Shown here piece after piece: positions 24,438 to 26,477 of a DNA stretch of 34,328 bases (positions within the stretch are counted from its first letter, which is position 1; each line of letters starts with the position of its first letter). Origin of the DNA: Formosa sp. (GTDB taxonomy: Bacteria; Bacteroidota; Bacteroidia; Flavobacteriales; Flavobacteriaceae); the NCBI GenBank assembly GCA_018673215.1, contig JABHDE010000058.1:1-34328 (forward strand). The letters run 5' to 3'. Below the pieces are notes generated by a model. The model was not told the origin of the DNA and did no database searches. It saw only the letters and a list, made by a program, of their open reading frames with translations. The position numbers and the translations under genes are program-made.

Positions 24438-25100
24438 ATGTCTATAAAAACCAATTTATCTGAGATTCAATCTCAACTGCCGAGTCATGTATCCTTAGTG
24501 GCGGTGTCTAAAACAAAACCCGTCGAAGACCTGATGGAAGCCTATAATTCTGGACAACGTATTTTTGGAGAGAATAAAATTCAAGAAATGGCTGACAAAT
24601 ACCAACAAATGCCCAAAGACATACAATGGCATATGATTGGAAATGTACAACGCAATAAAGTCAAATACATGGCTGAATTTGTGGATTTGATTCACGGGGT
24701 GGATTCCGAGAAATTACTCAATGAGATTAATAAACAAGCCGTAAAACACCAACGGACAATCAACTGTTTGTTACAACTAAAAATAGCTCAGGAGGACACC
24801 AAATTTGGAATGACTGAGAAAGCAGCCCGTGCTTTGTTAGAGTCCGATCATTTTAAAAACTTAAAAAACGTAGCGATTGTAGGTGTGATGGGAATGGCTA
24901 GTTTTACAGAAAATACCGCTCAAATTAAAGAAGAATTTACAAGTCTTAAAAACTCTTTTGAGAGTTTAAAAAATATAAGCTCATCCCTAGAAATAGTTTC
25001 TATGGGAATGAGTGGCGACTATCCCTTAGCTATTGACTGCGGAAGTACGATGGTTCGCGTTGGAAGTAGTATCTTTGGAGCTAGAAATTACGCCATTTAA
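24438..25100 (+). CDS. yggS: YggS-family pyridoxal-phosphate homeostasis protein
   Basis: This 220-aa cytoplasmic PLP-binding protein (PLPBP/ProsC family) is a single TIM-barrel domain. The PLP lysine is K25 in VAVSKTKPVE. RIFGENKIQEM, WHMIGNVQRNKVKYM and the C-terminal MGMSGDYPLAIDCGSTMVRVGSSIFG are family hallmarks; the last binds the PLP phosphate. The family buffers PLP and influences amino-acid and coenzyme balance. It begins 2 nt after DUF1015. Its TAA stop (25098-25100) is in the same frame as the next gene, whose conserved coding begins 9 nt later. Confidence 0.95.
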   Translation: MSIKTNLSEIQSQLPSHVSLVAVSKTKPVEDLMEAYNSGQRIFGENKIQEMADKYQQMPKDIQWHMIGNVQRNKVKYMAEFVDLIHGVDSEKLLNEINKQAVKHQRTINCLLQLKIAQEDTKFGMTEKAARALLESDHFKNLKNVAIVGVMGMASFTENTAQIKEEFTSLKNSFESLKNISSSLEIVSMGMSGDYPLAIDCGSTMVRVGSSIFGARNYAI

Positions 25101-25109
25101 AACAGCACT

Positions 25110-26477
25110 ATCTACGCAGTCTTAGACATAGAAACCACCGGAGGTAAATTTAATGAAGAAGGCATTACGGAAATTGCTATCTATAAATTTGACGGGCATA
25201 AAATTGTAGATCAATTTATAAGTCTGGTCAACCCCGAACGGGACATCCAACCATTTGTTGTGAACCTAACAGGAATCAATAGTAAAATGCTTCGCTCTGC
25301 ACCCAAATTTTATGAAATAGCCAAACGAATTGTAGAAATCACTGAAGACTGTATTTTGGTGGCTCACAATGCGCAGTTTGATTATCGAATTTTAAAGACG
25401 GAATTTAGACGTCTTGGCTTTGATTTTGAACGTAAGAATTTATGTACCGTAGAGCTTTCTAAAAAACTCATCCCAGACCTTCCTTCCTACAGTTTAGGAA
25501 AACTTGTGCGCTCATTAGGAATTCCCGTGAGTGATCGCCACCGTGCTTCAGGTGATGCAACAGCTACCGTAAAGCTTTTTAAAATGCTCCTAGATAAAGA
25601 TGTCGAAAAAACAATTATCAAGGAAGCTATTCGTTTGGATGCAAAACATCAAATGGAACCCAAGCTCACCGATATTATTTCTAAATTACCATCAGTTACA
25701 GGCGTCTATTATGTTCACAAACCAGATGGAGAAATTGTATATATCGGAAAAAGTAAAAACATCAAAAGTCGTATCAACCAGCACTTCACTGGTCAAACGC
25801 CGAAATCAAAAAAAATTCAGCTCGAAGTAGCCACAGTCACCTATGACGAAACTGGCAGTGAATTGGTAGCGCTTCTTAAAGAAAGTGAAGAAATTAAACG
25901 TAATAAACCCAAATTAAATCGCGCACTTCGACGTACAATTTTCACACATGGCTTGTTTAGTTTTAGAGATCCTGAGGGCTATATCAACTTGAAAATTGAA
26001 AAAATCAAAGGCAAACAAAAACCAATTACTACATTTTCAAATCATGAAAGTGGAAAAAGTTTTATGAACAAAATTGTGGAACAAAACCAACTGTGTCAAA
26101 AACTTTGTGGGCTTTATAAAACTGCCAATTCCTGTTTTGGATACGATATTAAAAGCTGTGCAGGCGCCTGCATTTCGGAAGAACCTTCAGAAATTTACAA
26201 CAAAAGAGTTTTAAATCTCATTGATTCTCATACTTTTAAAGATCAAAACATGATCATCATCGACTACGGAAGAGAAGTTGATGAACGAAGTGCAGTCTTG
26301 ATAGAAAATGGAGTTTTTAGAGGATATGCGTATTTTAATTTAAACTTTCAAATTCATACCACCGCCGTACTTAAATCTATTTTAACCCCAATGGAACACA
26401 ATAAAGATGCCCAGCATATCATTCAAAGTTTTATGCGTCGTCACAAAAGATTAAAAATAATTAAACTTGAAGATTAA
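25110..26477 (+). CDS. DEDDh exonuclease - GIY-YIG (UvrC/Cho-like) fusion protein
   Basis: This protein of about 455 aa joins a DnaQ-like 3'-5' exonuclease to a UvrC-type GIY-YIG nuclease domain and probably acts in DNA repair. Exo motifs are all present: LDIETTGG (D6, E8), HNAQFDYRIL and HRASGDATATVKLF. The GIY-YIG domain runs from about 195 (GVYYV, then IVYIGKSKNIKSRI). A cysteine group C329, C342, C350, C354 (plus C333) resembles the UvrC Fe-S ligands. The start is abnormal: no ATG, GTG or TTG lies between the yggS stop and the catalytic motif. ATC at 25110 stands where relatives have ATG (xYAVLDIETTGG). A GTG at 25260 would delete the exo I motif. I use ATC 25110 provisionally. Confidence 0.8.
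   Translation: MYAVLDIETTGGKFNEEGITEIAIYKFDGHKIVDQFISLVNPERDIQPFVVNLTGINSKMLRSAPKFYEIAKRIVEITEDCILVAHNAQFDYRILKTEFRRLGFDFERKNLCTVELSKKLIPDLPSYSLGKLVRSLGIPVSDRHRASGDATATVKLFKMLLDKDVEKTIIKEAIRLDAKHQMEPKLTDIISKLPSVTGVYYVHKPDGEIVYIGKSKNIKSRINQHFTGQTPKSKKIQLEVATVTYDETGSELVALLKESEEIKRNKPKLNRALRRTIFTHGLFSFRDPEGYINLKIEKIKGKQKPITTFSNHESGKSFMNKIVEQNQLCQKLCGLYKTANSCFGYDIKSCAGACISEEPSEIYNKRVLNLIDSHTFKDQNMIIIDYGREVDERSAVLIENGVFRGYAYFNLNFQIHTTAVLKSILTPMEHNKDAQHIIQSFMRRHKRLKIIKLED

Follow-up and report, generated by a model that had tools for sequence, protein, structure and literature searches.

Where can translation of a gene begin when no standard start codon precedes its catalytic residues? This question is raised by a nuclease gene of Formosa sp. 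(Flavobacteriaceae; GenBank assembly GCA_018673215.1) located on contig JABHDE010000058.1, the whole 34,328-nt stretch of which we refer to as the window. The gene encodes a DEDDh exonuclease-GIY-YIG nuclease and lies on the forward strand directly downstream of yggS. At the junction, the window reads GCC ATT TAA (25098-25100) AAC AGC ACT ATC (25110-25112), where the TAA is the yggS stop codon, situated in the nuclease frame 9 nt before the ATC. Codons 2-8 of the nuclease follow (TAC GCA GTC TTA GAC ATA GAA, 25113-25133), the last three of which specify the DIE exonuclease motif (25125-25133), and the reading frame remains open until a TAA at 26475-26477, so that the gene counted from the ATC spans 25110-26477 (455 codons plus the stop). 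As the original prediction had noted, coding resumes in the yggS frame and no ATG, GTG or TTG separates the yggS stop from DIE; the first in-frame standard start codon is a GTG at 25260-25262, and initiation there would cost codons 1-50, including the catalytic residues. Based on comparison with orthologs, we propose that translation probably initiates at the AUC itself, and that this weak start has been kept by selection to limit the amount of the nuclease.

The nuclease gene is present in all 18 genomes of the genus, and the codon at the homologous start is ATC in nine and ATT in the other nine, with no ATG; each of the 18 loci has the in-frame TAA 9 nt before this codon. The original prediction had listed a sequence error and a recent start-losing mutation among its options, and the window genome is indeed a draft (1.94 Mb in 78 contigs; completeness 90.9, contamination 7.8). 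However, the same codon class in 18/18 genus loci, together with 22 loci starting with ATH (ATT, ATC or ATA) whose record titles contain the word "strain", refutes both, and the ratio of nonsynonymous to synonymous polymorphism (pN/pS) of 0.058 in the first codons speaks against a pseudogene as well; we consider any explanation of this kind virtually impossible. Across the 18 loci, pN/pS is 0.058 for codons 2-50 and 0.064 for codons 51-120, and the similarity of the two values indicates that the stretch before GTG 25260 is translated. Initiation at that GTG, with the upstream part left untranslated, has in its favor that no standard start codon precedes it in frame, but codons 2-50 are strongly constrained at the protein level and contain DIE, so that this start is almost certainly not the one used.

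Beyond the genus, a search of 397 genomes of the family produced matches in 376. Loci were drawn from the highest-scoring of the matches listed (the named loci being the best 80 of 581), and 80 lower-scoring genomes were then added. The first 88 family loci, representing the best-scoring matches, carry ATT in 35 cases, TTG in 35, ATC in 7, ATG in 7, GTG in 2 and ATA in 2. Combining the genus, the family and the best 80 of 581 named loci gave 186 loci (ATT 82, TTG 63, ATC 23, ATG 11, ATA 5, GTG 2), a sample that is skewed to close relatives and counts some genomes twice. From the 138 loci L201-L338, 26 without a readable motif were left uncounted, and 20 further loci (paralog B, see below, and remote homologs) were excluded, five of these 20 showing GAA or AAA at the aligned position with a standard start located upstream; for L271, L286, L291 and L332, we took as the start the TTG immediately preceding the aligned codon. 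The resulting 278 orthologs were reduced to 252 by removal of near-identical rows, mostly from Flavobacteriaceae with a few from other families. Among these 252, the start is ATH in 104 (ATT 79, ATC 19, ATA 6), TTG in 86, ATG in 54 and GTG in 8. TTG is the sole one of the six Leu codons, and GTG the sole one of the four Val codons, found at this place, which fits a start codon rather than an internal residue. In 94 of the 104 ATH loci, there is no in-frame ATG, GTG or TTG upstream, and in 59, an in-frame stop lies at most four codons upstream; in L187, a TAA immediately precedes the ATT. The gene thus combines the two features expected of a conserved AUU/AUC/AUA start, namely, a non-AUG codon at the homologous start in relatives and the lack of a usable standard start. 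Named strains with ATH starts include Olleya aquimaris DSM 24464, Algibacter pectinivorans DSM 25730 and Mariniflexile gromovii KCTC 12570 (all ATT), Tamlana nanhaiensis FHC16 (ATC) and Winogradskyella litoriviva KMM6491 (ATA), and in the cultured Winogradskyella marincola, a TAA stands immediately before the ATT start. The earlier claim that relatives begin with Met-Tyr holds for the more distant ones, which have ATG-TAY, but not for the closer ones, where ATT, ATC, ATA or TTG precedes TAY.

To place these codons in an evolutionary context, we used a FastTree phylogeny of the 252 orthologs, constructed from nuclease codons 9 onward plus yggS and rooted on L225, a locus from another family. 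One branch of 146 rows contains 102 ATH and 44 TTG starts and not a single ATG, and a wider branch of 157 contains 103 ATH, 51 TTG, 2 GTG and 1 ATG, whereas the remaining 95 rows contain 53 ATG, 35 TTG, 6 GTG and 1 ATH. Parsimony on the whole tree implies about 25 switches between ATH and TTG, 0.6 from ATG to ATH, and none from ATH to ATG, although this last change requires merely one base substitution. The exchange of UUG with AUU, AUC and AUA and the avoidance of AUG in this part of Flavobacteriaceae suggest that selection keeps initiation weak and the nuclease scarce. At the class level, 22 of 27 loci were readable, and all 22, among them L404 of the same family, have a standard start no more than a few codons away, which is ATG in 14. 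Other orders of the class thus do without an AUH (AUU, AUC or AUA) start, suggesting that its origin lies within the family, where it was subsequently retained.

Neighboring and related genes behave differently. An in-frame ATG is present in 237 of 238 assessable yggS loci (four more could not be judged) compared with 55 of 252 nuclease loci. Many genomes of the family also carry a second exonuclease-GIY-YIG gene, paralog B, without an upstream yggS; it starts mostly with ATG, in some cases within an ATG-ATH-TAY string (L249-L254, L258-L260, L329). Of 10 paralog B loci, 8 (L249, L250, L252, L253, L258-L260 and L329) have an in-frame ATG no more than five codons ahead of the aligned position, the exceptions being GTG in L254 and TTG in L251, and genome G170 carries ATT in its A copy (L227) and ATG in its B copy (L252). 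A comparable case is infC, the standard example of a non-AUG gene: matches were found in 14 of the 18 genus genomes, one of them partial, and in all 13 other loci (L339-L351), there is no ATG, GTG or TTG between the upstream stop and the conserved INRKI/INKRI motif; the infC start in this genus is likely an ATA codon. In a crude comparison of 187 ORF (open reading frame) pairs between G001 (400 kb) and G016 (309 kb), 51 candidates showed conserved coding before any standard start; reading this list by eye, we found the nuclease to be the one evident real gene with an alignment extending far (42 codons) before any standard start. The two higher-ranked entries look spurious and the next lower is yggS, at 36 codons before its evident ATG, which shows how crude the measure is. 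About seven genes in this regional set appear, by eye, to start with TTG.

The position of the start just behind yggS raises two further alternatives, both contained in the original prediction. The first is readthrough of the yggS stop to yield a YggS-nuclease fusion, which would be compatible with the shared frame and the lack of any further stop after the TAA in the window. However, the TAA is retained in 18/18 genus loci, and L017 has an additional TAA 9 nt before it, at which yggS already terminates, so that a fusion would require reading through two in-frame stops. Across the family, the spacing and frame vary and other in-frame stops adjoin the start; the varying distance and the TAA directly before the ATT in L187 exclude readthrough as a general route, and we assign it a negligible probability. 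The second alternative is coupling, whereby ribosomes finishing yggS reinitiate at the ATC 9 nt further on and the weak codon works only through this coupling. The invariant 9-nt spacing in the genus and the fact that yggS precedes the nuclease in the same orientation in 179 of 186 loci are in line with this possibility. Against it, 100 of 101 ATH starts lie anywhere between 6 and 208 nt from the yggS stop (the exception, L020, at 253 nt, has a yggS frame that looks broken), TTG starts lie up to 907 nt away, and the start context described below is retained in 46 ATH loci at least 40 nt from yggS. Coupling may help in this genus without being general, and obligatory reinitiation strikes us as unlikely. 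The locus in G015 (C4:28652-30024; L020, L021) is anomalous in itself: the nuclease matches as two overlapping pieces, each with an internal stop, and the yggS frame ends early, so that this copy is probably frameshifted or misassembled.

Of the options originally listed, genuine initiation at the ATC is the one that survives, and elimination combined with conservation points to it. The ribosome would start at 25110 with the initiator tRNA, producing fMet-Tyr-Ala-Val-Leu-Asp-Ile-Glu..., with formylmethionine (fMet) presumably at the N-terminus, at a rate well below that of an AUG start. The ribosomes of Bacteroidia are described as not recognizing Shine-Dalgarno (SD) sequences (PMC9976891), and accordingly other features appear to mark the start. 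A four-base SD-like motif is found in 4/104 ATH, 5/86 TTG and 12/54 ATG loci, and a five-base one in 0/104 ATH loci, unlike the extended SD motifs of the Staphylococcus aureus type. T occupies position -1 in 70/104 ATH and 64/86 TTG loci compared with 14/62 ATG and GTG loci (Fisher test against ATG/GTG, 2.7e-8 and 3.3e-10, respectively, uncorrected for ancestry). In the window, this T is at 25109, with A at -3 and -6. A U at -1 can pair with A37 of the initiator tRNA, and could do so here; Esposito is said to have reported in 2003 that such a U helps AUU starts in chloroplasts. Among the 46 ATH loci at least 40 nt from yggS, A occupies -12 in 83% and -5 in 74%, and T occupies -3 in 4% and -1 in 52%, implying a signal in phase with the codon even when yggS is not nearby. 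The start would then be marked by the U at -1, an A-rich, G-poor leader and the absence of a nearby AUG. The leader also contains repeats in some lineages: tandem TTTTAAC heptamers fill it up to the ATT or ATC start in several Flavobacteriaceae (L039, L060, L065, L071, L072, L076, L089, L187), and in genus g127 (L204, L205, L208, L215, L216, L219), an ATG start follows TTGA-rich repeats.

The mRNA around the start is open. For the region -35 to +36, the mean folding energies are -2.9 (ATH), -4.0 (TTG) and -6.3 (ATG) kcal/mol. Compared with a synonymous null, which covered 53/104 ATH, 54/86 TTG and 54/54 ATG loci, this region is more open in 98%, 91% and 91% of the loci, with mean gains of 2.6, 1.7 and 1.4 kcal/mol, respectively. 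No RNA structure was found at the start in the window (z 1.07 and 0.64). Synonymous choice in codons 2-7 would contribute to this openness, and synonymous-site constraint in codons 2-8 is strongest in the ATH-start genes. Among 167 loci, codon 2 is TAC in 152, codon 6 GAC in 155 and codon 7 ATA in 165, compared with gene-body shares of 0.36, 0.27 and 0.24, whereas 278 control ORFs show no more than a mild shift in their codons 2-8 (TAC 0.37, GAC 0.35, ATA 0.43, GCA 0.51). This early-codon constraint rises with the weakness of the start: GAC6 is found in 103/104 ATH, 72/86 TTG and 19/54 ATG loci, and ATA7 in 104/104, 80/84 and 38/51, respectively. Rival AUG codons are avoided in parallel. TAT followed by G, which creates an out-of-frame ATG, occurs in 0/87 ATH, 1/75 TTG and 13/47 ATG loci; an ATG falls within +1 to +36 in 0/104, 3/86 and 15/54, and any ATG, GTG or TTG within the first ~25 nt in 13/104, 19/86 and 28/54, respectively. 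AUG depletion near starts is described as general in Bacteroidetes (PMC6847099). The idea that the codon constraint stems from avoiding all competing starts agrees with the data only in part, and we set it aside: downstream of ATH starts, ATG and TTG are less frequent, but GTG is more frequent and ATT is common (56/104). Farther downstream, an out-of-frame ATG lies ~43 nt from the start in 82/104 ATH loci and is common in all start classes; in the window, it is at 25153, after a GGAGG (25140).

Several points weigh against genuine initiation from a start selected for weakness. The AUG-free branch depends on a FastTree tree built from short sequences, with a support of 80, and beyond the branch of 157, ATG (53/95) and TTG (35/95) predominate, so that a weak start is not required everywhere. 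The links between context and start class are confounded by ancestry: among six supported independent pairs, none of three tests, all underpowered, was significant (pairs in the same versus the other direction: -1 T, 3.2 vs 1.2; GAC6, 1.7 vs 0.1; no TATG, 1.7 vs 0.0), and the context and early-codon associations may partly reflect shared ancestry. GTG within +1 to +36 is commoner in ATH (43/104) than in ATG loci (8/54), showing that avoidance of rival starts is not general, and loci with an ATG in -40 to -3 differ little between the classes (8/104 ATH vs 8/54 ATG). The near-fixity of GAC6-ATA7 is only partly explained, and the G at -5 and T at -12 in the window depart from the ATH consensus. 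Finally, codon conservation, exclusion of AUG from one branch, the context and the coding constraint are direct observations, whereas low dosage as the selected trait would follow from the known weakness of AUH and UUG starts in other bacteria. We nevertheless regard a self-limiting character of this start, as originally suggested, as plausible, the simplest reason for keeping it being to restrain a DNA-cutting enzyme, much as AUU would do for Escherichia coli pcnB.

Instead of such a fixed brake, the AUH start might serve as a regulatory sensor of initiation factor 3 (IF3) level, initiation fidelity or growth state. The principle is described for infC (PMC9410913), the AUA start of S. aureus ccpN is reported to respond to the medium (PMC13009471), and the near-fixed codons 6-7 also speak for it. 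However, the ~25 exchanges between UUG and AUH on the tree suggest that the strength of the start is more important than any readout specific to AUH, and there is no obvious route by which the nuclease could feed back on initiation; we therefore view a sensor as improbable. In an extended form, to which we give similarly little credence, the AUH codon, the -1U, the AUG-free, G-poor leader and the near-fixed early codons would form a single SD-independent element sensing the initiation state (IF3, bS21 or ribosome supply), such that a repair-type nuclease would be made only under certain conditions. Control by LexA was considered separately, given that a GIY-YIG exonuclease is listed in a Bacteroidetes SOS/LexA regulon (PMC8565304). 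Strict motifs (CTAA-N5-TTAG and GGA-N5-TCC, within -300 to +60) were found neither in the window nor in the 10 paralog B loci, and they occur in 1 and 9 of the 252 orthologs, respectively, compared with 4 and 5 in one shuffle each, with no clear excess.

The domain architecture of the protein is clear from profile matches. The RNase_T/DnaQ-like exonuclease domain (25119-25580; PF00929, E 6.3e-33) scores 115.1 bits against a cut-off of 24, starts at residue 7 of the 458-residue open frame and contains DIE, identifying a DnaQ-like DEDDh exonuclease. The GIY-YIG domain (25701-25919; PF01541, E 1.2e-8), which resembles UvrC/Cho and matches UvrC chains in PDB, scores 35.6 bits against a cut-off of 22.6. 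The top PRK07883 model (exonuclease-GIY-YIG, Cho/UvrC-like) spans residues 4-370, that is, both domains, yet the nuclease scores below the curated cut-offs of all five models tried (265.2 at best vs 495) and so cannot be assigned to this equivalog. Four cysteines, C329, C342, C350 and C354 (residues 329-354 from the ATC; 26094-26171), separated by 12, 7 and 3 residues, are invariant in the 10-sequence alignment A1, a pattern that we take to resemble the UvrC iron-sulfur cysteines. The upstream neighbor, yggS (24438-25100, forward strand), encodes a YggS-family pyridoxal phosphate protein (PF01168, TIGR00044) with an ATG start and a TAA stop.

No earlier report of this nuclease start codon was found in open-license PMC text, and well-known bacterial AUU, AUC or AUA starts are few. 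Binns and Masters reportedly found in 2002 that the AUU start of E. coli pcnB, encoding poly(A) polymerase I, limits translation. The nuclease shares with pcnB an AUH start said to limit translation, but it is a different protein, and its weak start spans many genera, alternates with UUG and is nearly devoid of SD motifs. No AUU-start genes other than infC and pcnB are said to exist in E. coli (PMC9410913). The infC gene, which encodes IF3 and starts with AUU or AUA, provides a second likeness, extended by the lack of a standard start codon in infC of this genus; however, IF3 is described as judging its own start codon (PMC9410913), whereas the nuclease has no evident feedback of such kind. 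In S. aureus, cvfC1 (AUU) and ccpN (AUA) have conserved non-canonical starts that lower protein yield and are directed by predicted extended SD motifs (PMC13009471), and thus rely on strong SD pairing, in contrast to the nearly SD-free ATH loci of the nuclease. For lepA, AUU was inferred in two species because no standard start gives the full protein (PMC1780047), much as here, but the excerpted account names single genomes and describes neither clade-wide conservation nor context, whereas the nuclease start is clade-wide. The SD-independent initiation described for Flavobacterium johnsoniae, with AUG depletion, low structure near starts and favorable A at -3 and -6 (PMC6847099), shares these features with the nuclease starts, but the terms AUU, non-AUG and GUG are absent from that text, and the ATH loci of the nuclease are AUG-free from +1 to +36 in 104/104 cases with mostly U at -1. 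In practical terms, a gene caller restricted to ATG, GTG and TTG would cut off the catalytic motif of the window nuclease, and other genomes with ATH starts could be affected in the same way. The nuclease start is of the same kind as the known AUU and AUA starts but is nearly SD-free, clade-wide and interchangeable with UUG, and a weak start maintained by selection across a large branch, within a class that does not use SD pairing, would offer a natural system for exploring how the ribosome finds a poor start codon.
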